This document shows, in pieces, positions 3,886-61,832 of a stretch of 64,000 bases of DNA. The stretch's first letter is position 1. Each line of letters opens with the position of its first letter. Source of the stretch: Acidovorax carolinensis (GTDB lineage: Bacteria > Pseudomonadota > Gammaproteobacteria > Burkholderiales > Burkholderiaceae_C); the NCBI RefSeq assembly GCF_002157145.1, contig NZ_CP021361.1:1178001-1242000 (forward strand), in the 5' to 3' direction. The notes under the pieces are model-generated. The model ran no database searches. It was not told the origin of the DNA and worked only from the letters and a program-made list of their open reading frames with translations. The position numbers were made by a program, and so were the translations under genes.

Positions 3886-4675
<790 letters not shown>

Positions 4676-4679
<4 letters not shown>

Positions 4680-5503
4680 AGAATATGAAGCATTTTTGGC
4701 CTCTGGCGCTTATTGGTAAAGCGCTTCCAGCTATCGTTTTTGTAGTTGGTGGGGTTGCCCATGCGCAATCCATCACCATGGCATCCACCACGTCCACAGA
4801 GCAGTCGGGCCTGTTCGGCTATCTGCTGCCCGAGTTCAAGAAAGCCAGCGGGCTGGATGTGAAGGTGGTGGCACTGGGCACGGGTCAGGCGCTCGACACG
4901 GCGCGCCGCGGCGATGCGGATGTGCTGTTTGTGCACGACCAGGTGGCCGAAGAAAAGTTTGTCGCCGACGGCTGGGGCGTGAAGCGCTACCCCGTGATGT
5001 ACAACGACTTCATCCTGGTGGGCCCCAAGAACGATCCCGCCGGTGTCAAGGGCAAGGACGTCGTTGAGGCGCTGAAAAAGCTGGCCGCTGGCAACGGGGA
5101 TTTTGTCTCGCGCGGTGACAAGAGCGGCACCCACGCCGCCGAGCTGCGCTACTGGAAGCTGGCCGGCGCCGATGCCGCCAAGGGCAGTGGCTACAAGGAA
5201 TGCGGCTGTGGCATGGGCCCGGCGCTCAACATTGCCGCATCCAGCGGCGCCTACGCGCTGGCCGACCGCGGCACCTGGCTCAACTTCAAGAACCGCGCCG
5301 ATCTGGCCGTGCTGGTGGAGGGCGATACGCGCCTGTTCAACCAGTATGGCGTGATGGTGGTGAACCCTGCAAAGCATCCGCATGTGAAGGTGCAGGACGC
5401 ACAGAAATTCGTGGACTGGGTGGTCTCGCCCGCCGGCCAGACGGTGATTGCCAATTACAAGATCGGTGGCGAGCAGCTGTTCTTTCCCAACGCGGCAAAG
5501 TGA
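4676..5503 (+). CDS. tupA: Tungstate ABC transporter substrate-binding protein (TupA type)
   Basis: This is a periplasmic oxyanion-binding protein of 275 residues. The mature part begins near AQSITMASTTSTEQSGLFG, which contains the TTST ligand loop typical of TupA. A conserved KECGCGMGPALN segment lies in the second lobe. The signal peptide runs from residue 1 to about 31 and ends at AHA. Residues 6-24 of it are encoded by one copy of the dispersed palindromic repeat, an unusual origin for a signal sequence. Together with tupB and tupC this forms a complete importer. Tungstate rather than molybdate is the family-based preference. Confidence 0.9.
4691..4745. repeat. Dispersed palindromic repeat inside tupA
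   Basis: The inner arms GGCGCTT and AAGCGCTT are separated by 7 bases and flanked by AT-rich boxes (TTTTTGGCC on the left, AGCTATCGTTTTTG on the right). The copy is fully in frame and encodes residues 6-24 of the TupA signal peptide. Confidence 0.8.
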
Positions 5504-9985: not shown

Positions 9986-10138
9986 GGAGTGTTCGGGTGG
10001 TGCGCGGCTTGCGGTCTGGATTGTCGCCGCAAGCACGAGCGCAGCAGCCCGATTGGACCGCTGGCGGGTCAAGTTTGCCCTGCGCACGCCGGGATTCGAG
10101 CGTTTTGCCAGCCTGAGAAATGAAGCAACAGAAGCAAA

Positions 10139-10195
10139 ATTGCTATTAAATTAGTAGCTGTTTGCGCTTATTTATAAAGGGCTCAATGCACTTTT
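10139..10195. repeat. Dispersed palindromic repeat at the 3' end of the AcoR-like gene
   Basis: TGCGCTT and AAGGGCT arms with a 7-base spacer are bordered by GCTATTAAATTAGTAGCTG. Most of the copy is translated: it supplies the stop codon and the last residues (about CIEPFINKRKQLLI) of the regulator. Confidence 0.7.
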
Positions 10196-11351
10196 TCTCA
10201 AGTTCTGCCGCACGGCGTTGCTTCGATGGACCGAGCTTGCGGTATACCGTGGCGCGGCTGATGCCCAGGGCGCGGGCGGCTTCGGCTACGTTGCCCCGGG
10301 CATCCTGCACGGCCTGGCGGATGAGGGCGGTTTCGGCCGCGCGCAGGGGTGCCGTGCCGCTGGCAACAGGCGCAGCCGGGGCTGCGTGGGTCGGGCGCGC
10401 AGGCCCACGGGCCCCATGGCTGCGCAGGGCCATGCCCTGCAGGCGCAGGCCCGACCACAGGGGCAGGTCCAGCGGTGCGGCAGGCTGGCGCTGCGCCGCA
10501 TCGAACAGCAGGGGCCAGGGCAGGGCCAGCAGATCGCTGCAATGCACCGGCATGCCGGGACGGCGCAGCGGCTGCGGCACCAGCTGGCGCGCCATGCTGT
10601 TGGTGCCCACCAGGGTGCCGTCGGCGTCCAGTGCCACCAGGCCGTCGCCTTCGCCACCCAGGGTGCTGCCCGGCCAGTTGATGCGCAGCAGCAGCGCATG
10701 TGGCCGTTGCAGCAGCAGGGCGTCTTCCATGGCGCGGGCCGAGCGGGCGACCAGGTGGCGCAGCTCGGGCCGCTCGGGCACATCCACGCCCGTCAGGTCC
10801 AGCATGCCCACGCACTGGCCCTGGGGGTCGAACAGGGGTGCACCGGCGCAGCTGTAGCCGCTGTTGGCATCAAAGAAATGCTCGCCCCGGTGCAGCCACA
10901 CCGGCTGCAACTCGGCCAGTGCTGCGCCGATGGCGGTGGTGCCAACGGCGGCCTCGGACAGGTCAATGCCCACGCGGCCGATGGCGCGGGCGCGGGGATC
11001 GCGGCGTTCCACCGCGCCCTGCACCTCGATCACCACGCCGCGCGCGTCGGTCAGCAAGGCGAAATAGTGCATGCCCGCAATGGCGCGGCTCAGTTGCGCC
11101 AGCACGGGCCGGGCGGCGCGCAACAGCGTGGCGTGCTGGTCGGCAGTGCGCTGCACGGTGGCGGCGCTGACGGTGTTGAACGCCACCGGCTGCGCGGGCC
11201 GGTGCCCATGGGCCAGGCAGCGCTGCCACGAGCGCACGATCCAGGGCTCGACCAGCGCAGCGGGCAGTGGCCGCTGGCTGAGCAGGGCGCTGCGCGCCTG
11301 GGCGATCAGCTGCTGGCGCTCGGCGGGCGGTGGCGGGGCAACGGCAAGCAT
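10146..11351 (-). CDS. AcoR-like GAF plus Fis-type HTH transcriptional regulator
   Basis: This 401-residue regulator is divergent from the cox cluster. An N-terminal AcoR-type segment (IVRSWQRCLAHG) and a GAF-like sensor (about 80-220) are followed by a C-terminal Fis-family helix-turn-helix, GNVAEAARALGISRATVYRK. The sigma-54 AAA+ domain of true AcoR proteins is absent, so it should act on ordinary promoters. The start at 11351 (MLAVAPPPPAERQQ) fits family starts. The final 14-17 residues come from the dispersed repeat and look like a recent, non-family tail. It most likely controls the coxS operon in response to an aromatic or small organic ligand; that is inference from position. Confidence 0.82.
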   Translation of the reverse strand: MLAVAPPPPAERQQLIAQARSALLSQRPLPAALVEPWIVRSWQRCLAHGHRPAQPVAFNTVSAATVQRTADQHATLLRAARPVLAQLSRAIAGMHYFALLTDARGVVIEVQGAVERRDPRARAIGRVGIDLSEAAVGTTAIGAALAELQPVWLHRGEHFFDANSGYSCAGAPLFDPQGQCVGMLDLTGVDVPERPELRHLVARSARAMEDALLLQRPHALLLRINWPGSTLGGEGDGLVALDADGTLVGTNSMARQLVPQPLRRPGMPVHCSDLLALPWPLLFDAAQRQPAAPLDLPLWSGLRLQGMALRSHGARGPARPTHAAPAAPVASGTAPLRAAETALIRQAVQDARGNVAEAARALGISRATVYRKLGPSKQRRAAELEKKCIEPFINKRKQLLI

Positions 11352-15300: not shown

Positions 15301-15339
15301 CACCCGCCGCCACCGTACTGCATCCAGGGGCGGGTGTTT
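15301..15339 (+). terminator. Weak terminator-like hairpin after coxM
   Basis: CACCCGCC (15301-15308) pairs with GGCGGGTG (15329-15336), with a 20-base loop and a short TTT. It could attenuate transcription into the accessory genes, but the loop is long and the T-tract poor. Confidence 0.3.
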
Positions 15340-15342
15340 GAA

Positions 15343-15396
15343 TGAAATTGGCCTCTTGCGCTTTTCAATCAAGCGCTGGTAGCTATTAAAAATATA
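15343..15396. repeat. Dispersed palindromic repeat between coxM and the MoxR gene
   Basis: TGCGCTT and AAGCGCT arms with a 7-base spacer are flanked by GAAATTGGCCTC and GGTAGCTATTAAAAATA. The copy ends directly at the start of the next gene and displaces any ordinary ribosome site. Confidence 0.8.
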
Positions 15397-15399
15397 GTG

Positions 15400-16338
15400 A
15401 TGAACGTGTCCCTTCCTGCAGCCATGACCGCACCCGCGCTGACCTCCATCGATGCCCTGGTGCAGGCTTTGCAGGGCGTGGGCTACTTTGCCGACCGGCG
15501 CCTGGCCACCGCCGTGTTCCTGGCGCTCAAGCTGCAGCGCCCGCTGCTGCTGGAGGGTGAGCCGGGCGTAGGCAAGACGGCGCTGGCCCAGGCGCTGGCC
15601 AAAGTGCTCACACGCACCCTGATCCGCCTGCAGTGCTACGACGGGCTGGAGCAGCGCGAGGCGCTGTACGAGTGGAACTACGCCGCCCAGCTGCTGCACA
15701 TGCGGGCTGCAGAAGGCAAAGGCAGTGCCGACATGGCGCAGCTGGAACGCGAGGTGTACCAGGACCGCTACCTCATCCGCCGCCCCCTGCTGCAGGCGCT
15801 GCAGGCTCCGGCGCCCGGTGCGGTGCTGCTGATCGACGAGGTGGACCGCGCTGACGAGCCGTTCGAGGCCTTTTTGCTCGAATACCTGGGCGAGTACCAG
15901 GTCAGCATTCCCGAGATCGGCACCGTGCGGGCCACGGCCACGCCGGTCACCATACTCACCAGCAACCGCACGCGCGACCTGCACGACGCCGTCAAGCGCC
16001 GCTGCCTTTATCACTGGCTGGACTACCCCGAACGCGAGCGCGAGCTGGCCATCGTGCGCGCCCAGGTGCCGGGTGCCAGCGAGGCGCTGGCGCAGCAGGT
16101 GGCGGATTTTGTGGGCCGGCTGCGCAGCCAGCCGTTTGCCAACGCATTTCAGCGCGCACCCGGCATTGCCGAGAGCGTGGAGTGGGCCAAGGCGCTGGTC
16201 GCGCTCGACACCATCGTGGTGGATCCCGAAGTGGTGTCCGACACCGCAGGCATTCTGTTCAAGCAGCGCGAGGATGTGGCGGCGCTCACGCGCGACATGG
16301 CGGTGCAGTTGCTGCAGCCCGTGCCGGAGCCGTCTTGA
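15400..16338 (+). CDS. coxD: MoxR-type AAA+ ATPase (CoxD-like)
   Basis: This 312-residue AAA+ protein has Walker A GEPGVGKT (53-60), Walker B VLLIDEVD and a sensor-1 segment ILTSNRTRDL. CoxD-type MoxR proteins act with a VWA partner to mature the sulfurated molybdenum centre of cox enzymes. Start choice is uncertain: GTG 15397, ATG 15400 and ATG 15424 are all in frame, and the dispersed repeat immediately upstream leaves no clear ribosome site. The stop at 16336-16338 abuts the VWA gene start at 16340. Confidence 0.88.
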   Translation: MNVSLPAAMTAPALTSIDALVQALQGVGYFADRRLATAVFLALKLQRPLLLEGEPGVGKTALAQALAKVLTRTLIRLQCYDGLEQREALYEWNYAAQLLHMRAAEGKGSADMAQLEREVYQDRYLIRRPLLQALQAPAPGAVLLIDEVDRADEPFEAFLLEYLGEYQVSIPEIGTVRATATPVTILTSNRTRDLHDAVKRRCLYHWLDYPERERELAIVRAQVPGASEALAQQVADFVGRLRSQPFANAFQRAPGIAESVEWAKALVALDTIVVDPEVVSDTAGILFKQREDVAALTRDMAVQLLQPVPEPS

Positions 16339-26240: not shown

Positions 26241-29200
26241 ATGAATCTGTCGCGCATCTTCATCCTGCGCCCCATCGCCACGTCGCTGCTGATGGTGGCG
26301 CTGCTGATATCCGGCGTGCTGGCCTACCGGCTTCTGCCCATCTCGGCCCTGCCCGAGGTGGATTACCCGACCATCCAGGTCACCACGCTGTACCCCGGCG
26401 CCAGCCCCGATGTGATGACATCGAATGTCACCGCGCCGCTGGAGCGCCAGCTGGGCCAGATGCCGGGCCTGGCGCAGATGTCGTCCACCAGCTCGGGCGG
26501 GGCCTCGGTCATCACGCTGCGCTTTGCGCTCGACATGGCGATGGACGTGGCCGAGCAGCAGGTGCAGGCCGCCATCAACGCGGGCAGCAACCTGCTGCCG
26601 GGCGACCTGCCCATGCCGCCGATCTACAGCAAGGTCAACCCGGCGGACGCGCCCATCCTCACGCTGGCCATCACGTCGCCCTCGTTGCCGGTGATCCGCC
26701 TCAATGATCTGGTGGAGAACCGACTGGCGCCCAAGCTCTCGCAAGTTACCGGCGTGGGGCTGGTGGCGATTGCGGGCGGGCGCCGGCCAGCGGTGCGCAT
26801 CCAGGCCAATCCCACGGCACTGGCCAGCCTGGGCCTGACGCTGGAGGATGTGCGCACCGTCATCGCGGCCGCCAACGTCAAGCAGGCCAAGGGCGGCTTT
26901 GACGGGCCCGCGCGGGCTTCCACCATTGATGCCAACGACCAGCTGCAGTCCGCACAGGAATACCGCGACCTGATCCTGGCCTTCAAGAACGGCAACCCCA
27001 TCCGACTGCGCGATGTGGCGCAGACGGTGGACGATGCCGAGAACACCCGCCTGGCCGCCTGGGCGGGCACGCCCGAAACAGGGTCCAGGGCCGGCGTCAT
27101 CCTCAACATCCGCCGCCAGCCTGGCGCCAACGTCATCGAGACGGTGGACCGCATCAAGGCCCTGCTCCCGCAGCTGCAAAGCACGCTGCCCGCATCGCTG
27201 GATGTGCAGGTGCTGACCGACCGCACCACCACCATCCGCGCTTCGGTCAAGGACATGCAGGTCGAACTGGCGCTGGCCATCGGCCTGGTGGTGGCCGTGA
27301 TCTTTGTTTTTTTGCGCAGCGCCTCGGCCACGCTCATCCCCAGCGTGGCGGTGCCGCTGTCGCTGGTGGGTACCCTGGGGGTGATGTATCTGGCGGGCTT
27401 TTCCATCAACAACCTCACGCTGATGGCGCTGACCATTTCCACCGGTTTTGTGGTCGATGACGCGATTGTCATGATCGAAAACATCGCCCGCCATGTGGAA
27501 CAGGGTGAGCTACCCTTGCAGGCTGCGCTCAAGGGCGCAAGGCAGATCGGGTTCACCATCATCTCGCTCACCATTTCGCTGATTGCGGTGCTGATTCCGC
27601 TGTTGTTCATGGGCGATGTGGTGGGCAGGTTGTTCCACGAGTTCGCCATCACCATGGCGGTGGCCATCTTGCTGTCGGCGGTGGTGTCGCTCACGCTCAC
27701 GCCCATGCTGTGCGCCCGCCTGCTGCGCCACACACCCGAAGAAAGCCACGGACGCATTTACCAGGCCACGGGCCGGTTTTTTGACCACACCATCGCGCAC
27801 TATGGCCGGGCGCTGCAGTGGGTGCTCAACCGCCGGGGCATGACCTGGCTGGTGTTTGCGGCCACGCTGGGGCTGACGGTGCTGCTCTATGTGCTGGTGC
27901 CCAAGGGATTTTTCCCGGTGCAGGACACGGGCACGCTGCAGGCCACCACCGAGGCCGACCAGTCCATCTCGTTTGCCGCCATGGCCGAGCGCCAGCAGCA
28001 GCTGGCCGAGCGCATCCTGAAAGACCCGGCGGTGAAAAGCGTGTCCTCGTTCATCGGGGTCGATGGGGCCAACACCACGCTCAACACCGGCCGCCTGCTC
28101 ATCGACTTGAAGTCCCACGCCGAACGCGACCGCGCCCCCGTTGTGCTGCGTCGCTTGGCGGAATCGACCCAGGACATTGCGGGCATCCTTCTGTATGCCC
28201 AGCCGGTGCAGGACCTCACCATCGAAGACCGCGTGGCGCGCACGCTATACCAGCTGCTGGTTTCTTCGCCCGACATGGCCCAGCTGCAGACCAGCACCGC
28301 CGATCTGGTGCAGCGCATGCGCGCCCTGCCGCAGCTGGCCGACGTGGCGAGCGACCTGCAAAGCCAGGGCCTGCAGGCCTTTGTGCAGATCGACCGCGCC
28401 CAGGCCAGCCGCCTGGGCGTGACGGTGGCGGGCATCGACACCGCGCTGTACAACGCCTTTGGCCAGCGGCTGATTTCCACCATCTTCACGCAGTCGAACC
28501 AGTACCGCGTGGTGCTGGAAGTGGCGCCCCCGTTCAAGCTGGGCCCGCAGGCATTGAATGCCATCTACGTCACGTCGAGCACGGGCAAACCGGTGGCGCT
28601 GTCGTCGGTGGCGCGCATCGAAGAGCGCAGCATGCCCCTGGCCGTGAACCATGTGGGCCAGCTGCCCGCAGCCACCATTTCGTTCAACACCGCGCCCGGT
28701 GTTTCGCTGGGCGACGCGGTCAAGGCCATCCAGGCCGAACAGGCGACGGCGCGCGCGGCGGGCTTGATGCCGCTGTCGGTGGACAGCAGCTTCCAGGGCG
28801 CGGCGCTGGCGTTTCAGGCCTCGCTGTCGAACACGCTGCTGCTCATCCTGGCGGCGGTGGCCACCATGTACATCGTGCTCGGCGTGCTGTACGAGAGCAC
28901 CATCCACCCAGTCACCATCCTGTCCACGCTGCCGTCGGCCGGGGTGGGGGCGCTGCTGGCGCTGTGGCTGGCGGGGCTGGATGTGGACATCGTGGCGGTG
29001 ATCGGGATCGTGCTGCTGATCGGCATCGTCAAGAAGAACGCAATCATGATGATCGACTTCGCGCTGGAAGCGCAGCGCGACCAGGGGCTGCCGGCGCGGG
29101 AGGCCATCTTTCAGGCTTGCCTGCTGCGCTTTCGACCGATTTTGATGACCACGATGGCGGCTTTGCTGGGGGCGTTGCCGTTGATGCTGGGCACGGGGGT

Positions 29201-29348
29201 GGGCAGTGAGTTGCGGCAGCCGCTGGGGGTGACGATGGTGGGGGGGCTGATCGTGAGCCAGTTGCTGACGCTGTTTACCACGCCGGTGATTTACCTGACG
29301 TTTGAGGGGTGGGCGCAGCGGTGGCGGGCTCGGCGGGGGGCTGTGTGA
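26241..29348 (+). CDS. mdtB: RND multidrug efflux pump subunit (MdtB-like)
   Basis: This 1035-residue inner-membrane proton-drug antiporter follows the usual two-fold RND layout: TM1, a large periplasmic loop, TM2-6, a second loop and TM8-12. The proton-relay pair lies in TM4 ([14 protein letters not shown]). The C-terminal [14 protein letters not shown] segment is typical. MdtB and MdtC form a heterotrimer in E. coli and this gene is paired with mdtC downstream. It starts 33 bp after mdtA. Base usage becomes G-run-rich near the 3' end, just before the palindromic element. Confidence 0.93.
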
Positions 29349-29356
29349 TGAATGCT

Positions 29357-29415
29357 CCTGTTTTTGTAGCTGGTTGCGTTTTTTGCTCGGGCGTTAGGGG
29401 CTTATTTGGCTATAT
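29357..29415. repeat. Degenerate dispersed repeat left of the palindromic element
   Basis: TTTTTGTAGCTGGTTGCG, GGGCGTTAGGGGC and an ending GGCTATA match the outer boxes of the repeat, but the inner arms are decayed. It begins just after the mdtB stop. Confidence 0.5.
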
Positions 29416-29434
29416 GCCCCTGCTGAGGCTGTCT

Positions 29435-30094
29435 GCCGGGATGTGCCCCCGGCGGGGCACCTTCTTTTCTTGCGTCGCCAAGAAAAGAAGGCAAAAGAAG
29501 GCGACCCTGCTGTCTGCGACCCCTTCGCTTCGCTGCGGGGCAACCTGGGGTGCTCGTGCGCGGGGTGCGCCGTGGAACTCGCTACGCGCTGGCGCGCTGC
29601 GCTCGGACAACCACGGCGAGTCAGATGACGATGCGGGTGTGTCCTGCGGCACACCCGCCACCCCGCGCCCTGCGCGCCCCAGGCGCATCCAGAAGGGGTT
29701 GGGGGCAAACAGCCGCACGGGCCATCGCTTTGCTCGGCCCCATTTCGCGGGCGCAAGCGCTTCGCGCTGCGCAGGCGCGGCCGAGCGAAGCGATGGCCCG
29801 TATGGCTGTTTGGATGTTCGGCTGTCCAACTCCTGCTGGCTGCGCCTGCGGCGCGGCGGTTGCGGGGTGGGCATGGGCGTCGAAGCGCCCATGCTTCGTC
29901 AACTGACTCGCCGCGGTTGTCCGATTGGAGCGCCGCAGGCGCGGAGTGAGTTCTGCGGCGCACCCCGCAACCGCCCCGACGCAGGTTTGCCCCTTCGCAC
30001 AGCGAAGGGGTCGCAGACTGGGGGTCGCCTTCTTTTGCCTTCTTTTCTTGGCGACGCAAGAAAAGAAGGTGCGCCGCCGGGCGCACATCCCGGC
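29435..30094. repeat. Giant imperfect palindrome of about 660 bp between mdtB and mdtC
   Basis: The left arm (from GCCGGGATGTGC at 29435) and the reverse complement of the right arm (ending at 30094) align along nearly their whole length of about 325 bp. The centre is near 29760-29765 (GCGCAAGCGCTTCGCGC). The outer 70 bp, containing TTCTTTTCTTGCGTCGCCAAG, are almost identical, and so are the innermost 80 bp. Intermediate stretches carry substitutions and small indels. Open frames run across it, but they reflect the symmetric GC-rich composition and match no family. No transposase is present, so it is a non-autonomous or structural element. Its RNA would fold into a very long hairpin inside the mdtB-mdtC transcript. 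Confidence 0.85.
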
Positions 30095-30136
30095 ACCCGC
30101 CCTCCAACTGAGCACACCGCTCGATCGGGTCCCTGG

Positions 30137-30203
30137 CTTCGACAGGCTCAGCCCGAACGGGTTGGGGTGGTGCCCCGCCTTCGACCAGTTCAGCCCGAAC
30201 GGG
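30137..30203. repeat. Two tandem copies of a short CTTCGACAGGCTCAGCCCGAACGG-type repeat
   Basis: The first copy at 30137-30161 reads CTTCGACAGGCTCAGCC then CGAACGG. The second at 30178-30203 differs by CAGTTC in place of AGGCTC. I recall this short motif as widely dispersed in several proteobacterial genomes. It sits directly right of the giant palindrome. Confidence 0.65.
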
Positions 30204-30232
30204 TGGTTGGCCAACAAAACATCCCTGCGCAA

Positions 30233-30290
30233 ACTATCAATTTCATAGCTTCTAGCGCTTATCCCATAAGCGCTAGAGCAAAAAAATACC
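30233..30290. repeat. Dispersed palindromic repeat upstream of mdtC
   Basis: AGCGCTT and AAGCGCT arms with a 7-base spacer (ATCCCAT) are flanked by CTATCAATTTCATAGCTTCT and AGAGCAAAAAAATAC. This is one of the least decayed copies, ending about 20 bp before the mdtC start. Confidence 0.85.
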
Positions 30291-30312
30291 AGAAACCCAA
30301 GAGGCCCACCCC

Positions 30313-33300
30313 ATGAGCCTCTCCACCCCCTTCATCCACCGCCCCATCGCCACCACGCTCCTCACCCTGGGCCTGGCCCTGGTGGGCGCCGTGTCCTATT
30401 TCCTGCTCCCCGTCGCCCCGCTGCCGCAGGTCGACTACCCCACCATCTCGGTCAGCGCCAGCCTACCCGGCGCCAGCCCCGACACCATGGCCGCCACCGT
30501 GGCCACGCCACTCGAGCGCTCGCTGGGGGCCATTGCCGGCGTCAACGAGATCACCTCGCGCTCCATCCTGGGCAGCACCTCCATCACGCTGCAGTTCGAC
30601 CTCAACCGCAACGTGGACAGCGCCGCGCGCGACGTGCAGGCCGCCATCAACGCCGCGCGCACGCTGCTGCCCACGGGCATGCCCAGCAACCCCAGCTACC
30701 GCAAGGTGAACCCGGCCGATTCGCCCATCATGATTCTGGCGCTCACGTCCAGTGCGCTCACGCGCGGGCAGATGTACGACGCGGCGTCCACCGTGCTGGC
30801 GCAAAAGCTTTCGCAGGTCGAAGGGGTGGGGCAGGCCACCGTAAGCGGCGGGGCGCTGCCGGCGGTGCGCGTGTCGCTCGACCCGGTGCGGCTGGCGGCC
30901 AACGGCGTGTCGCTGGAGCAGGTGCGCGGCGCCATCAGCAGCACCAATGCCAACCGCCCCCTGGGCGCGGTGGAGCGTGAAGACCACTACTGGCAGATCG
31001 CCGCCAACGACCAGGCCCGCGTGGCGGCGGATTACGCCCCGCTGGTGCTGCGCTGGCAAAACGGCAACGCGATTCGCCTGGCCGATGTGGCCGAGGTGAC
31101 CGACTCGGTGCAGGATGTGCGCAACTTCGGTGTGGCCAACGGCAAGCCGGCTGTGCTGCTGCAGGTGTACAAGCAGCCCGGCGCCAACATCCTGGAGGCA
31201 GTGGACCGCGTGCGCGCGCTGCTGCCGCAGCTCAAGGCGTCGATCCCGGCGGCCATCGATGTGGAGATCGTCTCAGACCGCACGCCCACGCTGCGCGCCT
31301 CGGTCAAAGAGGTAGAGCGCGCCTTGCTGATCGCCGTGGCGCTGGTCATCCTGGTGGTGTTCCTGTTCTTGCGCAACGGGCGCGCCACGCTCATTCCGGC
31401 GGTGGCGGTGCCGGTGTCGTTGGCGGGCACGTTTGGCGTGATGTATCTGGCGGGCTACACGCTCGACAACCTCTCGCTGATGGCGCTGACCATTGCCACC
31501 GGCTTTGTGGTGGATGACGCCATCGTGGTACTGGAAAACATCATGCGCCACATGGAGCGCGGCAAAACGGCGCTGCAGGCATCGCTGGACGGCGCGCGCG
31601 AGATTGGCTTTACGGTGGTGTCGATGAGCCTGTCGCTCATTGCCGTGTTCGTGCCCATCTTGTTCATGGGCGGCATTGTGGGGCGGTTTTTCCATGAGTT
31701 CGCCATCGTCATGTCGGCCGCCATTCTGGTGTCGCTGCTGGTGTCGCTCACCACCACGCCCATGATGTGCGCGGCGCTGCTCAAGCAGCCGCACCGGCCG
31801 CCCGATCGCGCGCCCAGCCTGGCATGGTGGGCGCGCCTTTCGCGGCGGCTGGACGCCCTGCAGGCCCGGGGTTTGCGTGGCTACCGGCGCAGCCTGGCCT
31901 GGTGCCTGCGCCACCAGCCCTTGGTGCTGCTGGTGCTGGCCGCGGTGGTGGGGCTCAATGTGTACCTGTACACCGCCATCGAAAAAGGCTTCATGCCCGA
32001 GCAGGACACGGGCCGCATCTCGGGCTTCATCCGTGCCGACCAGGCCACGTCCTACCAGGCCATGGAGCAGCGGCTGCAGCGCTTTCTGGCCATCGTGCAG
32101 GTTGATCCTGCCGTGGAAAACGTGACCGGCTTCACCGGTGGCTGGCAGCGCAATGCGGCGCAGATGTTCATGACGCTCAAGCGCGGGCCGGGGCAGGAGC
32201 GGTCCGAGGCCGTCATCACCCGCCTGCGTGCGCAGCTGAAAGACGAGCCCGGCGCCCGCCTGTTCATGGTGCCCCAGCGCGACATCCGCATCGGCGGGCG
32301 GCAAAGCAGTGCGTCATACGACTACACGCTGCAGGCCGATGACATTGCCGAGCTGCGCACCTGGGAGCCGCGCATCCGCCAGGCCCTGGCGCAGCTGCCC
32401 GAACTCGAAGACGTGAACAGCGATGTGTCCGACTACGGCCTGCAAACCACGCTGGTCATTGACCGCGATGCCGCCACGCGCGCGGGCCTGACCATGGCGC
32501 AGATCGACGCCACGCTGAACGACGCCTTCGGCCAGCGCCAGGTGGGTGTGATCTACAACCCGCTCAACCAATACCGCGTGGTGATGGAAGCCGCACCGCG
32601 CTACCTGCAAAGCCCCGAAACGCTGCGCGGCTTCTTCTTCGTCAACAGTGCGGGCCAGCAGGTGCCACTCACGGCGTTTGCGCGCATCACCACCACCAAC
32701 ACGCCGCTGTCGGTCAGCCACGAGCGCGGCACGCCGGCCAGCACCGTGAGCTTCAGCCTGGCGCCGGGCGTTTCGCTGTCACAGGCCACCGATGCCGTGC
32801 ACAACGCGGTGGCCGAGCTGGGCGTGCCCGTGGGAATCCGTGGCACCTTTGGCGGCACGGCGGGCGCGTTCCAGGACGCACTGGCGGGCCAGCCGCTGCT
32901 GATCCTGGCCGCCATCATCACCATCTACCTGGTGCTGGGCATGCTGTATGAAAACCTGCTGCACCCGCTCACCATCCTCTCCACCCTGCCATCGGCCGGG
33001 GTGGGGGCGTTGCTGGCGCTGATGCTGTTCAAGACCGAGTTCTCGCTGATCGCGCTGATCGGCGTCATCCTGCTGATCGGCATCGTCAAGAAGAACGCCA
33101 TCATGATGATTGACTTCGCACTGGTGCGGCAGCGCGCCGGGCACATCACGGCCGCGCAGTCCATCTACCGCGCCTGCAGCCTGCGCCTGCGGCCCATCCT
33201 CATGACCACGCTGGCTGCCATCTTTGGCGCGCTGCCGCTGGCGCTGAACCGGGCCGATGGCGCCGAGCTGCGTCAGCCCCTGGGCATTGCCGTGGTGGGC

Positions 33301-33450
33301 GGGCTGCTGCTGAGCCAGTTGCTCACGCTGTACACCACGCCCGTGGTCTATGTGGCGCTGGACCGGCTGCGCGCCCGTGTGCCGCGATGGGCCCGCTGGC
33401 GCCGCCACCCGGCCGCCGGCCCGAAGCCTGCGCTGCAAGGAGATTCCTGA
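30313..33450 (+). CDS. mdtC: RND multidrug efflux pump subunit (MdtC-like)
   Basis: This 1045-residue RND antiporter is paralogous to the mdtB product. The TM4 acid pair is in [15 protein letters not shown], and the C-terminal [14 protein letters not shown] segment is shared. As in E. coli, MdtB and MdtC probably assemble together. The gene is separated from mdtB by 964 bp of repeats, instead of the usual close spacing, so co-transcription must pass through the giant palindrome. The start at 30313 follows AAGAGG. The stop TGA overlaps the next ATG by one base. Confidence 0.93.
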
Positions 33451-34910
33451 TGCACCCTCGTTACTCTATTTTTGATAGCTGCTTGCGCTTATCCAGTAAG
33501 CGCTGGAAGGTATTTTTGCTTATGATTTCGGCGCTGCTCACGGCCTGCAGCACCCCGCCGCCCCACGAGCGACCGGCGCTCGACGTGCCCACCACCTACA
33601 AGCAAGGCGTGCAAGGCAGCGCCGTGTGGCAAACCGCCCAACCGCAGGACAGCGTGCCCGGCGCGTGGTGGACGCTGTTCGCCGACCCTGCGCTCGATGC
33701 GCTGCAAGAACGCGCCGCCAGCGGCAACCAGAACGTAGCTTTGGCCGTGGCCCGGCTGCGCGCTGCGCGCGCCGCACTCGACAGCGCTGGCGCCGCCGGC
33801 CTGCCCAGCCTGGGCGCCACGGCCAGCAGCACGCGCGCGCGCAGCGGCACCACCGCCGACAACACCACCCAGGCCCGCACCCGCAACAGTCAGGCCCTGG
33901 GCCTGAACGCCAGCTGGGAGCTGGACCTGTGGGGGCGCCTGTCGGGCGGTGTGGATGCCGCGCGCGCCAGCGCCCAGGCCAGCGCCGACGACCTGGCCGC
34001 CGCGCGCCTGTCGGTGCAGGCCACGGTGGCGCAAACCTATTTCGCCCTGCGCGCCGCCGAGGCGCAGGTGCTTTTGCTGGATGACACCCTGACCGCCTAC
34101 GAGCGCAGCTGGCAACTCACGCGCAACCGCCAGCGCGCGGGCGTGGCCTCGGCGGCCGACGTGGCGCAGGCCGAGGCGCAATACAAATCCACCCAGGTGC
34201 AACGGCTCGAAGCGCAGACCAGCCGCGCCCAGCTCGAACACGCGCTGGCCGCGCTCACCGGCCAGGCACCGGCCGCGCTCAGCGTGCCCGCTACGGCCTC
34301 GCTGCCCGCACCCCCCACCGTGCCGGCGCAACTGCCCTCGCGTCTGCTCGAGCGCCGGCCCGACATCGCTGCCGCACAGCAGCGCGTGGCAGCGGCCAAC
34401 GCGCAGATCGGCGTGGCGCAGGCGGCTTTCTTTCCGGCGATCACGCTGTCGGGCGCGGCGGGCTATCGGGGCACAGAGCTGTCCAGTTTGCTGAACGCCC
34501 CCAACCTGTTCTGGTCGCTGGGCCCTGCGTTGGCTGTATCCCTTTTCGACGGCGGTGCCCGCAGCGCCGCCGTCGAATCGGCCCGCGCCACGCACGACCA
34601 GGCCGTGGCCAGCTACCGCCAGACCGTGCTGACCGCGCTGCAGGAAGTGGAGGACAACCTCGCCGCCGCCACCGCGCTGGAGCGCGAACAGCAACTGCAG
34701 GCCGAGGCCGTGGCCGCCGCGCAGCGCGCGCTGGATGTGGTGGGCAACCAGTACCGTGCGGGCACCGTGGGCTATCTGAATGTGCTGACCGCGCAGACCA
34801 CCGTGTTGTCAGCCCAGCGCAACCTGATTGATGTGCGCTCCCGCAGGCTGGCAGCGGTGAACATGCTGCTCAAGAATGTGGCGGGAAGCTGGGCTGCCGA
34901 GAGGCTTTAG
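33450..34910 (+). CDS. Outer-membrane efflux lipoprotein (NodT/OprM family)
   Basis: This is the TolC-like outer-membrane channel of the efflux pump, 486 residues. It has two OEP repeats rich in heptad coiled coil, the NodT-type WWTLFADPALDAL, and a lipobox LLTAC with lipidated cysteine at about residue 34. The start ATG 33450 overlaps the mdtC stop and has an AAGGAG site inside mdtC. Residues 6-24, which provide the positive n-region and part of the hydrophobic core of the signal peptide, are encoded by a near-perfect copy of the dispersed repeat. An internal ATG at 33522 would leave no n-region. Confidence 0.9.
   Translation: MHPRYSIFDSCLRLSSKRWKVFLLMISALLTACSTPPPHERPALDVPTTYKQGVQGSAVWQTAQPQDSVPGAWWTLFADPALDALQERAASGNQNVALAVARLRAARAALDSAGAAGLPSLGATASSTRARSGTTADNTTQARTRNSQALGLNASWELDLWGRLSGGVDAARASAQASADDLAAARLSVQATVAQTYFALRAAEAQVLLLDDTLTAYERSWQLTRNRQRAGVASAADVAQAEAQYKSTQVQRLEAQTSRAQLEHALAALTGQAPAALSVPATASLPAPPTVPAQLPSRLLERRPDIAAAQQRVAAANAQIGVAQAAFFPAITLSGAAGYRGTELSSLLNAPNLFWSLGPALAVSLFDGGARSAAVESARATHDQAVASYRQTVLTALQEVEDNLAAATALEREQQLQAEAVAAAQRALDVVGNQYRAGTVGYLNVLTAQTTVLSAQRNLIDVRSRRLAAVNMLLKNVAGSWAAERL
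33465..33520. repeat. Dispersed palindromic repeat inside the efflux lipoprotein gene
   Basis: TGCGCTT and AAGCGCT arms with a 7-base spacer (ATCCAGT) are flanked by CTATTTTTGATAGCTGC and GGAAGGTATTTTTGC. The copy is translated as residues 6-24, the same position as in TupA. Confidence 0.85.
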
Positions 34911-45680: not shown

Positions 45681-46943
45681 TCAGAGTAGCAAAAAAGACG
45701 CCGCCGCCACCGCCGTCGGCATCAGCGCTCCCAGCAGCAACCCGCCCGCGCCAATGGTTTCGTCGGCAAAGCCGCGCTTGAGCAAGGCGACGCCGGCCGG
45801 ATTGGGCGCGTTGGCAATCACCGTGAGGCCGCCCCCGGCCACTGCACCCGCCACCAGCATGTATTTGGCGGGGTCGGACATCCCCTCGATCAGCGATCCC
45901 AGGTAAGTGAGTGCCGCGTTGTCGGTGATGGCCGTCAGGCCCAGGGCGCCCGCGAACAGGGCCAGCGGCTGCAGGCTGGAGACGATGGGCTGCAGCCACC
46001 ATTGCTGCATGCCACCCAGCACCACCAGCCCGGCAAGGAAGAAACCCACGAGCAGCGCTTCTTTGAGGATCAGCGGGCTCTGGTGGCGTTCGTAGGCCTG
46101 CGTGAACGCCAGAAACAGCAGGAACAGCCCGACAAAAACCACCGGGTGGTGTGCAAACAGCACCACGCCGGCCAACAGCGCCAGGTGCACGGCTGCCACC
46201 GTGGCGGACACGGGCGCTCGCGCCTGCTGGCCTGCCGCGAGGGCGCTGGCGTGGGGCAAGTGCTTGCGCAGGATGAAGGTGCAGACCGTGGCGTTGAGCA
46301 GCACCGCCAGCGCGGCTTTCCACCCGAAGGTGGCCAGCATGAAGGCGCTGTCCCATTGCCAGGTGGCGGCCACCATCAGCACAGGTGGCGCGGCATACGA
46401 GGTGAGCGTGCCGCCGATCGACACGTTGACGAACAGCACCCCCAGCGCCAGGTACTTGCGGCCTTCAGGCACATCGGCACGAAAGACTTGCGGCGCCAGC
46501 ATGAGGGCGGCAATGGTCATGGCGGCTGGCTCGGTGATGAGCGAACCCAGCAGGGGCACGGCGGCCAGCCCCAGCCAGGCGGTGGCCATCGGGGTGGGCA
46601 GGGGCATGAGGCGCGCCATGGCATCCACCAGGGCCACCACGGTGCGCAGCACCGGGCGCGAGGCGGCAATCACCATCACCACGAAGACAAACAGCGGCTC
46701 GGTGTAGTTGCGCGACTCGGCGTAGTGCAGGGCCTGCGCGCCGCCACCCACCAGGGCCATGACCACAATCAGCACCATGGCCCAGAAGCCAAACACCACT
46801 TCGACTTCGCCCAGCAGATGGAACAGGCCCGCGTGGCGCGGAAAGCGGTGCGAGAGCCGTTCGAACTGTTTGGCGGAAAAGGTGTGAATCAGCGCGATGC
46901 CGAACAGGGCGGCGGCAATCCATTGGAGGGTGGTGGGTGTCAT
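45681..46943 (-). CDS. Putative Na+/H+ antiporter family membrane protein
   Basis: This 420-residue membrane protein has about 11 hydrophobic segments and belongs to the ion-transporter superfamily of putative Na+/H+ antiporters. Conserved features are GEVEVVFGFWAM, SLITEPAAMTIAALML, TSYAAPPVLMVA and a late AITDNAALTYLG followed by NAPNPAG, the helix-break motifs of this fold. Ion specificity cannot be read. The ATG start is at 46943. It converges on gudD. Confidence 0.8.
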   Translation of the reverse strand: MTPTTLQWIAAALFGIALIHTFSAKQFERLSHRFPRHAGLFHLLGEVEVVFGFWAMVLIVVMALVGGGAQALHYAESRNYTEPLFVFVVMVIAASRPVLRTVVALVDAMARLMPLPTPMATAWLGLAAVPLLGSLITEPAAMTIAALMLAPQVFRADVPEGRKYLALGVLFVNVSIGGTLTSYAAPPVLMVAATWQWDSAFMLATFGWKAALAVLLNATVCTFILRKHLPHASALAAGQQARAPVSATVAAVHLALLAGVVLFAHHPVVFVGLFLLFLAFTQAYERHQSPLILKEALLVGFFLAGLVVLGGMQQWWLQPIVSSLQPLALFAGALGLTAITDNAALTYLGSLIEGMSDPAKYMLVAGAVAGGGLTVIANAPNPAGVALLKRGFADETIGAGGLLLGALMPTAVAAASFLLL

Positions 46944-47285
46944 GTGGGGGCGGTCGTAAAAAAGCCGCGTGGCGGCCCGACCAGCGCATGAACCTGCCGC
47001 GCCTGCTGGCGCGTACACCCGGAGAGCAGTTTACCAGCAGCGCTTGTGGCGGCCAGATAGCGCAATAGGATCGCGATTTGCTCCTGAAAACATAGCTATT
47101 AGCGCTACTTGGATCCACTTCATGGGCATTTTTTGTGCATGTCCTTGCAGGATCGTGGACTGCGCAGACTCGCGAAGAAACAACCCGACAAAGGCCGATA
47201 GCCGTCGCTACAGGTGCCCGTGGTGTCACGCTGCCAGACGATAATTTGATTTTTTGCCAGCCCGAAGGGCTTGAAGGACGAACGC
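46944..47285. other. Gap between the antiporter and uppP genes
   Basis: About 340 bp without a gene. It holds a partial dispersed repeat at 47085-47110 and presumably the uppP promoter near the AT-rich GATAATTTGATTTTTTG at about 47240-47256. Confidence 0.4.
47085..47110. repeat. Half copy of the dispersed repeat
   Basis: GAAAACATAGCTATTAGCGCT matches one outer box and one inner arm; the other half is missing or decayed. Confidence 0.35.
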
Positions 47286-50832: not shown

Positions 50833-51102
50833 CGGCGCGTGGATGAACGCTTCATCGCGATGCGCTTGCACTGCGGGGCATCGTCACCGGGCCCGCCCTG
50901 TGCAGGCCAGTCGCCCAGGATTCGGGCGATGGTGCCGTCGCCCAGGGGGGCGGCGTGCCGCCGCATGTCCTGTAACTGGATGTCCGGGGCTGAGAGAGCG
51001 GCGTCATGGACCGTGCGTATCGTTTTGTAACTTGTCAGTGTAGCGGACGCGCTAGCAGTTGGTGTGTCAGATTTTTGGAACCGACCGCCGTTCGGACAGG
51101 GG
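50833..51102. other. Noncoding gap between the tandem cyclase genes
   Basis: Apart from the promoter of the first cyclase I see no gene. The right end merges into the hydrolase remnant. Confidence 0.4.
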
Positions 51103-51179
51103 CTGGGCGGGATCGAAGCCAGGTTCAGCAAGGCTGCCTCTGTGGCCGGCGGCTGCCCCATCGCAACCCGGTGGCTGCC
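51103..51179 (-). pseudogene. Remnant of an alpha/beta hydrolase 3' end
   Basis: The stretch reads GSHRVAMGQPPATEAALLNLAS on the minus strand, matching the end of the intact hydrolase gene at 53213-54031 (GSHLFPMEQPLATAAAIEAALLNLAS) apart from a 12-base deletion and a few changes. DNA identity is high across CCAGGTTCAGCAAGG and CGGCTGC-CCATCG. It is best explained as the left behind end of a duplicated segment. Confidence 0.75.
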
Positions 51180-54897: not shown

Positions 54898-54991
54898 GGG
54901 GAATGCGAGAAAGAGGAAAGGCACAGAGTGTAGTGCGATGCCGCAACGCGCCTGCAGCACCGAAACCACCCGCCGACAGATTGCGGACAGC

Positions 54992-55055
54992 TGCTATTAA
55001 ATAAATAGCTTCTCGCGCTTTTTCCGTAAGCGATACAGGTTGATTTGTGTCAAAT
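54992..55055. repeat. Dispersed palindromic repeat between Anbu and mutS
   Basis: CGCGCTT and AAGCGAT arms with a 7-base spacer are flanked by GCTATTAAATAAATAGCTTCT and CAGGTTGATTTGTGTCAAATTTT. It is intergenic, upstream of the Anbu gene and downstream of mutS. Confidence 0.75.
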
Positions 55056-55087
55056 TTTCAGGCTGCGCTGATCGTCTGCCGTGCGCG

Positions 55088-57742
55088 TCATTGCCCCGAA
55101 AGCTTTTTGAGCTGGTACAGCGCATCGAGCGCCTCGCGCGGGGTCAGCGCATCGGGGTTGATGCCGGCCAGCGCCGCTTCCACGGGGCTGGCGCCTGCGC
55201 TTTCGGGGGCGGCCGGGGTGGCGAACAGGTCCACCTGCAATTGCCCTTCGCCGGCGCGTTCTTCGAGCGCCGCCAGCGTGTGGCGCGCATGGTGCAGCAC
55301 CGGCGCGGGCACGCCGGCTAATTTTGCAACCTGGATGCCGTAGCTGCGGCTGGCGGGGCCGGGTTGCAGCTCGTGCAGAAACACGATGTCGGTGCCCGCC
55401 TCGGCGGCGGCCACATGCATGTTGACGGCGTGGCGGGCCTTGGCGGGCAGCTCGGTCAGCTCAAAGTAATGCGTGGCGAACAGCGTGAAGGCGCGGGTCT
55501 TGTCGTGCAGGTGCGTGGCGATGCCGCTGGCCAGCGCCAGGCCGTCGAAGGTGCTGGTGCCGCGGCCGATCTCGTCCATCAGCACCAGGCTGTGCGGCGT
55601 GGCGGCGTGCAGTATCTGCGCGGCTTCCACCATCTCCAGCATGAAGGTCGACTGCGCGTTGGCCAGGTCGTCGGCCGCGCCGATGCGGGTGTGGATGGCG
55701 TCGATGGGCCCCAGGCGGCAGCTGGCGGCGGGCACATGGCTGCCCATGCTGGCCAGCAGAGCTATGAGCGCCACCTGCCGCATGTAGGTCGATTTACCGC
55801 CCATGTTGGGGCCGGTGATGATCTGCATGCGCGTGTTGGCGTTCAGGCGCGTGTGGTTGGCGATGAAGGCGCCGCTCGATGTTTCAGCCAGGCGTGCCTC
55901 CACCACGGGGTGGCGGCCGGCCTCGATCTCGATGCAGGGTTCGGGCACGAACTGCGGCGCGCACCAGTTCAGCGTGAGCGAGCGCTCGGCCAGCGTGCAC
56001 AGCACATCCAGCGTGGCCAGGGCGTGCGCCAGGCGGGTGAGCTGGGGGATGTGGGGCTGGAGCTGGTCGAGCACCTGCTCATACAGCCATTTCTCGCGCG
56101 ACAGGGCACGCTCGTTGGCCGACAGGGCCTTGTCTTCAAACGTCTTGAGCTCGGGCGTAATGAAGCGCTCGGCGTTTTTCAGCGTCTGGCGGCGGCGGTA
56201 GTCGTCGGGAACCTTGTCGAGGTGGCTGCCGGTCACTTCAAAATAAAAGCCGTGTACCTTGTTGAACTGCACGCGCAAATTCGGAATGCCGGTGCGCGCT
56301 TTTTCGCGCGTTTCCAGGTCGAGCAGGAAGTCGTCGCAGTGGGTCTGGATGGCGCGCAGCTCGTCGAGTTCGGCATCAAAGCCGCTGGCGATCACACCGC
56401 CGTCGCGCACCAGTGCGGCGGGCTCTTGTGCAATGGCGCGGTGCAGCAGGTTGGTGCAACCCTCGGGCGGCCGCAGATGACCAAAAATTTGAGCCAAATA
56501 AGGCTCTGGCGCTTGTCCATTCAGCGCAAGCAGCTCTGCTTTTTGTAGCGTTTTGCCCAGGCCCACCAACTCGCGCGGGCGCACCTGACGCAGCGCAATG
56601 CGGGCGGTGATGCGCTCTACATCGCTCACACCCTTCAGTTCCGCCCGCAGCGTGGCCCAGGGGCCCGAGCCACCACCGGCGCCGCCCGCACCGCGCAGGG
56701 CGGTGGTGGCCGACAGGCGCTGGCGCGCCCCGGTGCGGTCGCGGCGGGGTTCGAGCAGCCAGGTTTTCAGCAGGCGGCTGCCCATGCCGGTCATGCAGGT
56801 GTCGAGCAGCGAGAAGAGCGTGGGTGCATCGTCGCCGCGCAGGGTCTTGACGAGTTCGAGATTGCGGCGCGTGCTGGCGGGCAGGTCGATCAGGTCGTCG
56901 CCGCGCTGCACCTGCACGCTGTGCACATGGGTGAGCTGGCGGCCCTGGGTGTGCTCGGCGTATTGCAGCAGCGCGGCGGCGGCGGCGTGGGCCTCGCCCA
57001 GGTCGTGCGCACCCCAGGCCTGCAGGCTGGCGGCGCCCAGGTGTTCGAGCAGCTTGCGCGCGCCGAGGGCGCTATCAAACTGCCAGTCGGGCCGTGGGCT
57101 CATGGGGCAGGTGAAGGCACCGCCCTGGCGCAGCCGCTGCAACTGCTGCTCAAAGCGCTCGGTCACGCCGGCGCTGTAGATCAGCTCGCTGGGCGCCACG
57201 CGCGCCAGCCAGGCGCCCAGTTCGTCCTGCGCGCATTCGGCCAGGAACACGCGGCCCTGCGTGACGCTGAGCCACGCCAGGCCACAGCGCGCGCGCGGCG
57301 CCTGGTGCACAGCCAGCAACAGCGATTCGGATTTGTCGGACAGCAGCTCGGTATCGGTCAGCGTGCCGGGCGTGACCACGCGCACCACCTTGCGCTCCAC
57401 CGGGCCCTTGCTGGCGCCGACCTCGCCCACCTGTTCGGCAATGGCCACCGATTCGCCCATCTTGATGAGGCGCGCCAGGTAGTTCTCGAGGGCATGAAAC
57501 GGCACGCCGGCCATCACGACCGGTTGCCCGCCCGACTGGCCGCGCTGCGTGAGCGTGATGTCGAGCAGGCGCGCGGCCTTTTCGGCGTCTTGCCAGAAGA
57601 CCTCGTAGAAGTCGCCCATGCGGTAGAACAGGAGCGTTTCGGGGTACCCGGCCTTCAGGGCCAGATACTGCGCCATCATCGGCGTATGCGCACTAATCAA
57701 CGCATCCACAAGCTGTTGATTTTGTTCGGTCTTGTCCTGCAT
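55088..57742 (-). CDS. mutS: DNA mismatch repair ATPase MutS
   Basis: This 884-residue mismatch sensor has the mismatch-contacting Phe-X-Glu in GDFYEVF (44-50), core and clamp domains, Walker [10 protein letters not shown] (644-652), [14 protein letters not shown] for Walker B, and FATHYFEL. A short C-terminal helix motif closes the protein. Residues about 398-422 in the lever/core region ([20 protein letters not shown]) are encoded by a dispersed repeat copy, read in frame. The family normally has non-repeat sequence there. A Gly/Ala-rich insert (about 350-361) is also visible. Confidence 0.95.
56481..56548. repeat. Dispersed palindromic repeat inside mutS
   Basis: GGCGCTT and CAGCGCA arms with a 7-base spacer are flanked by AAAAATTTGAGCC and AGCTCTGCTTTTTGTAG. 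It is translated without disturbing the frame. Confidence 0.75.
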
Positions 57743-60101: not shown

Positions 60102-60893
60102 ATGCGTACCCGTTTCATCCTTATTCAGACCAGCCATGCCGGCAATGTGGGCGCCGCCGCGCGCGCCATGAAAACCATGGGTTTTGACGACCTGGTGCTG
60201 GTGGCGCCGCGCTGGCCCAACGTGCTGCGGCGCGAGGAAACCATCCAGCGCGCCAGCGGCGCCCTGGATGTGCTGGAGAACGCACGCATCGTCGCCACCC
60301 TGGATGAAGCCCTCGACGGCATGAGCCATCTGTGCGCCACGGCGATGACGCCGCGCGACTTTGGTCCGCCCGCCGCCAGCCCCCGGGCGCATTTTGAAAT
60401 GCTATTGAAAAAAGAGCGACTAGCGCCAGATGGACAAGCGCTGGAGGCCAAAAATGCTTCAAACCCGGATGCTGCGGCGGCACAATCGGGCGTGGCCTTT
60501 CTGTTTGGCTCCGAGCGCTTTGGCATGGCCAACGAGGACGTGTACCGCTGCCATGTGGCGCTTTCCATCCCCACCAACCCCCGGTTTGGTTCGCTCAACC
60601 TGGGCGCCGCCATCCAGGTGATTGCCTACGAGTGGCGCCAGGCGCTGGGTGGTTTTGCAGTGCAGGATGCCACGCCCGCCCGCGTGCAGGCCGATGCCGC
60701 CCAGGTGGCTGGCATGCTGGCCCACTGGGAACAGGCGCTCACCGGCATCGGATTTCTCGACCCCGCCGCGCCCAAGAAACTCATGCCGCGCCTGAACCAG
60801 CTTTTCAACCGCGCGCAATTGAGCCCGGAAGAAATCCACATCCTGCGTGGTGTCGCCAAAGCCATGCTCGAGACGGCACAGGCAAAGCGCTAG
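60102..60893 (+). CDS. trmJ: tRNA/rRNA 2'-O-methyltransferase (TrmJ type)
   Basis: This 263-residue SPOUT methyltransferase probably forms Cm32/Um32 in tRNA. SAM-binding knot motifs are SHAGNVGAAARAMKTMGF (11-28), LFGSERFGMAN (134-144) and NLGAAIQVIAYE. The C-terminal helical extension is typical of TrmJ. Residues about 97-121 (MLLKKERLAPDGQALEAK) are encoded by the dispersed repeat, adding a surface loop before the second motif. Confidence 0.9.
   Translation: MRTRFILIQTSHAGNVGAAARAMKTMGFDDLVLVAPRWPNVLRREETIQRASGALDVLENARIVATLDEALDGMSHLCATAMTPRDFGPPAASPRAHFEMLLKKERLAPDGQALEAKNASNPDAAAAQSGVAFLFGSERFGMANEDVYRCHVALSIPTNPRFGSLNLGAAIQVIAYEWRQALGGFAVQDATPARVQADAAQVAGMLAHWEQALTGIGFLDPAAPKKLMPRLNQLFNRAQLSPEEIHILRGVAKAMLETAQAKR
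60391..60462. repeat. Dispersed palindromic repeat inside trmJ
   Basis: AGCGCCA and AAGCGCT arms with a 7-base spacer are flanked by GAAATGCTATTGAAAAAAG and GGAGGCCAAAAATGC. It is translated in frame, in the opposite orientation to the mutS copy. Confidence 0.75.
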
Positions 60894-61729: not shown

Positions 61730-61759
61730 GAAGCACGCCAGGGGCGTGCTTCTTTTTTT
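61730..61759. terminator. Bidirectional rho-independent terminator after cysE
   Basis: GAAGCACGCC (61730-61739) pairs with GGCGTGCTTC (61743-61752) around a 3-base loop, followed by TTTTTTT; an A-run precedes it. It therefore serves both cysE and the convergent alcohol dehydrogenase gene. Confidence 0.9.
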
Positions 61760-61812
61760 ATAGCTGCACACGCTTGATACGCAAGCGCTATCGGCCGGTT
61801 TGATTAAAAATG
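61753..61812. repeat. Dispersed palindromic repeat overlapping the cysE terminator
   Basis: The T-run of the terminator forms the left outer box (TTTTTATAGCTGC). Inner arms CACGCTT and AAGCGCT have a 7-base spacer, with TTTGATTAAAAATGC on the right. Confidence 0.75.
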
Positions 61813-61832
61813 CAGGTCGCAGGCCGGTCCGT

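Follow-up and report, generated by a model that had tools for sequence, protein, structure and literature searches.

Repeat DNA at the start of nodT

The efflux lipoprotein gene nodT of this Acidovorax genome opens with a copy of a dispersed repeat. The locus raises the question of whether repeat DNA builds the export signal of NodT, and whether the repeat is kept at such gene starts for its translation or for its DNA. The window, meaning the whole 64,000-nucleotide stretch analysed, is positions 1178001-1242000 of a 4.12-Mb single-contig genome, and its features are collected in Table 1. Two RND permease genes precede nodT, and the ATG at 33450 overlaps the TGA stop of the second. The repeat was described by a model of 71 positions, R1, built from 43 genome copies. 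At E<=1.1e-4 R1 gives 17 rows for the window, 7 of which echo a hit on the opposite strand, leaving ten distinct places. The nodT copy is the best match among the ten and ranks 7th among the 150 genome matches listed, 150 of 2469 candidates having been scored. It was left out of the 43 copies used for the model, so the near-intact copy proposed in the original prediction for this N-terminus is borne out independently of the model set, over codons 3-27 and with 75.1 bits.

Table 1. Repeat copies and associated features in the window (positions numbered from its first nucleotide)
Feature	Position	Strand	Evidence
TupA-like binding protein, signal peptide MKNMKHFWPLALIGKALPAIVFVVGGVAHA	4676..5503	+	PF12849 (PBP_like_2) in reading frame 4238-5503
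Repeat copy read in antisense as TupA residues 4-24	4681..4751	-	R1 54.0 bits; one of 43 copies building R1
Repeat copy at 3' end of gene called 10146-11351 (-)	10137..10207	+	R1 51.6 bits
Repeat copy just upstream of gene called from 15424 (+)	15333..15403	-	R1 60.0 bits
Repeat copy directly after stop of first RND gene (26241-29348)	29349..29419	+	R1 41.8 bits
Repeat copy just before second RND gene (30313)	30228..30298	+	R1 60.4 bits
RND permease gene (MdtC-like) upstream of nodT	30313..33450	+	profile match and sequence
nodT ribosome-binding site AAGGAG, ahead of ATG 33450	33437..33442	+	sequence
NodT/OprM-type outer-membrane efflux lipoprotein gene, 486 aa	33450..34910	+	TIGR01845 425.6 bits; OEP PF02321
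Repeat copy in nodT, sense orientation, codons 3-27 (core 5-25), read as ..FDSCLRLSSKRWKVFLL	33458..33528	+	R1 75.1 bits, E=2.1e-14 (window); consensus alignment
nodT lipobox LLTAC, residues 29-33, Cys33	33534..33548	+	sequence
Intergenic repeat copy adjoining mutS	54988..55058	+	R1 58.0 bits
Repeat-like stretch in frame inside mutS (55088-57742 -), residues ~397-420	56484..56554	-	R1 50.7 bits
Weak repeat-like stretch inside SpoU-type methylase gene (called 60102-60893)	60396..60466	+	R1 33.0 bits
Repeat copy between convergent genes	61743..61813	+	R1 49.5 bits

The NodT N-terminus shows the charged n-region, hydrophobic core and lipobox with Cys that are the criteria of a lipoprotein signal peptide. 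The predicted peptide, read from sequence only, has Arg or Lys at positions 4, 13, 17, 18 and 20, then VFLLMISALLTA, with LLTAC at 29-33. The copy contributes mainly the charged n-region (R13, K17, R18 and K20) and VFLL, while the rest of the hydrophobic core and the lipobox are the gene's own and lie outside the repeat. The proposal that repeat DNA supplies the n-region and the first hydrophobic residues ahead of the lipobox LLTAC thus stands, and NodT is probably exported by a peptide built in part from the repeat.

The letters AAGGAG upstream of the start recur in five related loci (L140-L143 and L039). Other starts were considered and rejected. The ATG at 33387 has no ribosome-binding site in the start scan, and the ATG at 33522 (Met25), the gene caller's pick, leaves only 8 uncharged residues before the Cys. 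RNA-level explanations of the nodT start fared no better: the fold of 33430-33540 is unremarkable (z=-0.05), no Rfam family reaches its gathering score there, and the one terminator pattern match (33492-33507) compares with an average of 0.7 in shuffles. Chance likeness due to amino-acid or codon bias was also rejected; in one synonymous-codon randomisation none of 1711 gene N-termini exceeded 30 bits, against 11 observed.

A dispersed repeat family

Conservation spans about 63 of the 71 model positions, giving a repeat unit of ~63 bp. The family is dispersed and has many copies, with 144 and 86 rows at E<=1e-4 in 2.064 Mb and ~460 copies by extrapolation to 4.12 Mb. For half of the genome 234 copies were classified, namely the best 150 of 192 rows (1.264 Mb, E<=0.01) and 84 of 86 rows (0.8 Mb, E<=1e-4), two short or overlapping rows being dropped. 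Placed against codon-based gene calls made in this analysis, 150 of the 234 lie clear of every called gene, 36 are internal to genes and 48 overlap gene ends or open 5' extensions. Convergent gaps hold 47 copies in 42 kb, divergent gaps only 11 in 66 kb, and the 92 copies between tandem genes lie at a median of 11 bp downstream of the upstream stop. This placement outside genes and close to their 3' ends, with few copies in divergent gaps, is REP-like. In the hairpin AGCGCTT..AAGCGCT 82% of cells are paired, and its covariation in 150 copies is barely above that of shuffles (0.152 versus 0.133; 8 of 500 shuffles as high). With strict filters at E<=1e-6, R1 detects the family in 22 of 80 Comamonadaceae genomes, our own included. 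In an order-wide draw of 60 genomes it was found at E<=1e-6 in our own only and in none of the 59 others, one of which belongs to the same family.

The window holds further features beside these copies. The ~965-bp gap between the RND permease genes (29349-30298) contains several long inverted repeats, among them a pair with arms 29425-29507 and 30022-30104, which are 93% complementary. They apparently form a second repeat family, with a copy of the ~63-bp repeat on either side. An nhaA-I riboswitch motif (46968-47020, minus strand; Rfam RF03057, 48.1 bits) precedes the gene called at 45681-46943 (-). At 49000-52909 two neighbouring minus-strand genes share long stretches of 74-84% identity at a constant spacing of 2251 bp, and are likely a tandem duplication.

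NodT in related species

R1 was run over 80 named NodT loci and 29 of 30 further loci (L162 was excluded, its N-terminus being absent); the 30 came from 47 genomes, 17 of which yielded no locus. The best-matching named NodT is that of Comamonas granuli, with 83%. A copy overlaps the nodT coding start in seven distinct genomes, namely our own, L140, L141, L142 (the same contig as L040), L143, L039 and the distant L075. In the first six the copy is in frame and Cys33 is retained (6 of 6 species). These six species form one clade (support 93/86) nested among repeat-less congeners. The N-terminus scores fall apart into two groups, +48 to +88 in the seven carriers and -26 to -71 in seven scored non-carriers. 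Sister NodT genes carry no trace of the repeat and start, for example, with MLSTPSSPFPARLALSLAVLALLGAC, with the lipobox Cys at 26. The original prediction named as its refutation orthologues that lack the repeat and share the same N-terminus. None was found for NodT; the N-termini of repeat-less relatives are unrelated to those of the carriers, and NodT thus passes this check.

L075 holds its copy in the same codon register, on a long branch. It lies outside the six-species clade, so on the tree the repeat must have been gained twice, or else gained once and lost twice, and a single origin of the NodT copy is one of two possible histories. Weak R1 matches were also seen beside nodT in L046 and L052, and a further match elsewhere in the locus of L141. 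A more distant nodT group (L164-L168) has the repeat just past the gene end in five congeners. Another NodT-type gene has one in-frame TAG in two species of the clade (G000:C1:1276664-1278034 and G024:C1:2734381-2735655).

Reading frames of the repeat

The repeat could be a ready-made export signal that owes its retention or spread to a translation functioning as a signal peptide. One frame speaks for this. Sense frame 3 has an open, hydrophobic translation in 25% of 150 intergenic copies compared with 5.3% in shuffles, SCO1 and the M16 peptidase read the repeat in this frame, and an ABC-auxiliary lipoprotein and a cupredoxin have the same LIAASA-type peptide. However, NodT and TupA are read in other frames. 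In the NodT frame there are TAG triplets in the consensus, and the two within the core are replaced by TTG and TGG in the nodT copy. All seven nodT carriers have this frame open, compared with only 21% of the 150 intergenic copies, and it is hydrophobic in none of the intergenic copies, which does not support a ready-made hydrophobic signal in the case of NodT. The antisense frame of TupA is hydrophobic in ~1% of the same copies. Taken over any frame, the excess of open and hydrophobic copies is modest (29% versus 20% in shuffles, sd 3%). In addition, 150 of the 234 copies overlap no called gene. The idea of a ready-made signal is therefore supported by one unusually open and hydrophobic frame but not by the two proteins on which it was based, and we consider it distinctly improbable as the general explanation.

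TupA was cited in the original prediction as having the same residue range derived from the repeat. The range does agree (residues 4-24), but the copy lies in the opposite orientation and is read in another frame, giving a different peptide.

Recurrence at signal-peptide gene starts

Signal peptides were marked by a rule of our own, which combines charge, a 9-residue hydrophobic window and an AxA-like site or lipobox. Applied to the 1711 called genes of >=100 aa in 2.06 Mb, with any plausible start admitted, it marked 336. When every plausible start is counted, a copy above 30 bits lies in the first 120 bases of 10 of the 336 predicted signal-peptide genes and 5 of the 1375 others (p=8.8e-5). 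The rule wrongly marked at least two proteins, both among the ten: a PabB-like protein and S2:157758. Moving these two gives 8/334 versus 7/1377 (p=0.0035), and removing nodT and tupA as well gives 6/332 versus 7/1377 (p=0.026). An earlier figure of 9/315 versus 2/1396 (p=8.5e-6) was replaced by the all-starts count; it overstates the effect because genes without a signal peptide were scored from the called start alone, and that start tends to be past a repeat.

Counted by translation, 9 of the 15 genes with an N-terminally translated copy are marked (p=6e-4), or 8 of 15 with PabB moved (p=0.0035); outside the window the figure is 7 of 13 (p=0.006). Genes with an untranslated copy <=150 bp upstream are marked, by called start, in 12 of 106 cases, and genes with an internal copy in 2 of 35. 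The exported proteins with a translated copy are NodT, TupA, the M16 peptidase, SCO1, the ABC-auxiliary lipoprotein, a TPM-domain protein, the cupredoxin and LolA, the last six of these other than NodT and TupA being assigned by Pfam. The highest-scoring N-terminal copy (90.8 bits) stands at the start of a cytosolic oligopeptide-type ABC ATPase (L225:14050-14991, MNTTNATDLIAASAYSKSAKGQF..) as an N-terminal extension, and it counts against the reading preferred below as well as against a ready-made export signal.

Strong copies at gene starts are thus modestly commoner in predicted signal-peptide genes than elsewhere. The expectation of a recurring mechanism rather than chance is supported by the enrichment (p=8.8e-5) and weakened by its small size, with p=0.026 after the removals.

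Possible constraint on the repeat DNA

The tupA, sco1 and M16 genes were matched in 44, 46 and 44 of 46 genus genomes, and R1 finds the gene-start copy in 21, 25 and 24 of 30 congener loci, respectively (E<=0.01). All four genes used in the argument on DNA constraint (these three and nodT) were chosen for matching the repeat. Third codon positions are A or T in 51-64% of the signal-peptide codons of tupA, sco1 and M16 versus 12-15% in the mature part. Over whole signal peptides, codon identity at the same residue is no higher than in the mature part (0.67-0.69 versus 0.69-0.72). The pattern appears column by column. The more strongly a repeat column is conserved in intergenic copies, the less diverse is the third position that falls on it, with rho of -0.43, -0.48 and -0.58 for the three genes and -0.49 when pooled over 70 columns (p=1.8e-5; 30 genus loci each, genus sets unfiltered and register fixed). 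A filtered version with genus and family sets agrees for third positions. In NodT, all 75 same-residue pairs at codons 9-13 (GAT AGC TGC TTG CGC) share the codon, versus 145 of 186 at codons 34-60, the pairs being not independent.

Since the copies are retained in 21-25 of 30 congeners and the third positions follow the conservation of the repeat, constraint on the repeat DNA itself is suggested at the starts of tupA, sco1 and M16. Shared ancestry or 5' codon preference could be behind part of the pattern. Because third-position conservation tracks the DNA profile of the repeat, selection for an export peptide alone is not a sufficient explanation, a further point against the ready-made signal.

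In other genera (29 loci per gene) the signal peptides of repeat-bearing genomes often still score high, although repeat-bearing G048 gives -43.7 for SCO1. Among genera with no copies detected under strict filters (E<=1e-6), 31 of 43 loci score below -20, the positive exceptions being G110 (31.5 and 21.0) and G114 (21.8). SCO1-like N-termini occur in genera without detected copies, such as G090 (MRKRDALRFIALSAVTAGTAGLLAAC, -34.8) and G114. They count against the ready-made signal as well. The refuting observation named in the original prediction, absent for NodT, is thus found in part for SCO1, where the N-termini are similar. The G090-type N-termini could result from loss of the repeat family followed by codon drift.

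Internal copies and the origin of the nodT signal

The repeat may instead be a selfish RPE- or MITE-like insertion that is tolerated at protein ends. On this view signal peptides belong to the coding regions under least constraint, and the likeness in DNA is due to shared descent. Copies are indeed translated inside unrelated genes. Of the 234, 36 are internal to called genes, including those of the conserved cytosolic proteins MutS, HrpA, AroE and TruB. Nine of these 36, a non-random set of five expected to have solved homologues and four among the highest-scoring, were compared with solved homologues. HrpA, FdhA and a KdtA-like protein are longer by ~17 to 50 residues in the region of the copy (for HrpA taken from the alignment's table of stretches), as insertion would predict, and the bimodal NodT N-terminus scores also make gains look discrete. 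In contrast, MutS, AroE, OTC, TruB, IleRS and a DnaE-type protein show no gain of more than 5 residues, IleRS being shorter there. Six of nine copies without such a gain fit plain insertion poorly, and so do the tupA, sco1 and M16 copies still matched by the model across congeners. We find tolerated insertion rather doubtful as the whole account.

The third-position pattern and the coding copies without length gain would both fit a DNA motif that molecular drive or a binding protein preserves throughout the genome, in the manner of an uptake sequence or of a chromosome-organising element, with the coding copies as by-products. Orientation is consistent with such a motif. Of the 150 intergenic copies, which come from L119-L138, L169-L248 and the window, 95 are oriented with replication as judged by local GC skew (p=0.0014), and copies between tandem genes do not follow the direction of transcription (48 of 92). 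However, the strand bias is weak over all 234 copies (136, p=0.015), intermediate scores are few, and known uptake sequences are far shorter than ~63 bp. This explanation by itself seems unlikely.

Our preferred reading, to which we give a probability of roughly 55%, is a REP/MITE-like element under DNA-level constraint, which the starts of signal-peptide genes are able to accommodate and put to use. A hairpin-containing ~63-bp element, dispersed in part of the Comamonadaceae, would be preserved as DNA, chiefly in intergenic positions and frequently right behind the end of a gene. A share of the copies would come to stand immediately after a start codon and be translated. In nodT, a variant without the in-frame TAG triplets of the consensus would have been present at codons 3-27 before the six species diverged, and would read as a positive n-region and the start of a hydrophobic core ahead of the gene's own lipobox. 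It is possible, though we do not favor it, that the DNA motif is under its own selection and has repeatedly been made the signal-peptide code of conserved exported proteins (NodT, TupA, SCO1, M16 peptidase, LolA and others), with a genome-level role and export both keeping it over genus and partly family time.

On the preferred reading of an accommodated element, nodT would be a testable example of a dispersed repeat becoming a working protein targeting signal, and a DNA motif appears to shape codon choice inside export signals. There is also a consequence for annotation. The codon-based gene caller missed the likely starts of nodT and tupA because the AT-rich repeat looks non-coding.

Comparison with known repeats

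The repeat resembles REP and BIME elements in its many copies with a GC hairpin, its position at gene 3' ends and its preference for convergent over divergent gaps, but it is longer and asymmetric. A REP unit has 20-40 nt, and the ~63-bp repeat falls outside this range. The DNA uptake sequences of Neisseriaceae and Pasteurellaceae are likewise high-copy motifs conserved at the DNA level inside genes. The Acidovorax motif appears to share these features but is much longer.

Among the open-licence papers listed for a Comamonadaceae repeat like this one, the paper on BRE was the one found relevant. BRE occurs in Betaproteobacteria including Acidovorax, Delftia and Polaromonas, mostly between genes with some copies at gene ends or in genes; as given in the available text, it has ~90 bp, 69% GC in Bordetella, a frequent tandem arrangement and 1-4 copies in Acidovorax genomes (Hot 2011, PMC3110155). 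The present repeat is AT-rich, single and far more numerous. Compared by the description of BRE rather than by its letters, it misfits in size, GC content and copy number.

Rickettsia palindromic elements are dispersed and translated in frame inside unrelated proteins, according to the accessible parts of two papers (PMC2229807, PMC10969869), and in this they are like the Acidovorax repeat. They differ in being 105-146 bp long and clear inserts, whereas here 6 of 9 coding copies bring no gain of more than 5 residues and signal-peptide starts are enriched.

A signal peptide built from a repeat has already been described in Yersinia; for this family, the way it recurs at signal peptides and the pattern in third positions, no description was found among the open-licence papers listed. 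In the portion of the Yersinia study available, the 168-bp RU-2/YPAL forms part of the predicted signal peptide of YPO1552, relatives of this protein elsewhere have unrelated signal sequences, and enterobacterial repeats are described as having hydrophobic frames (Delihas 2007, PMC2759123). RU-2, as presented there, belongs to another family, is 168 bp long and accounts for few cases, whereas the Acidovorax repeat is ~63 bp, is found in eight exported genes in half of the genome, and is retained across species.
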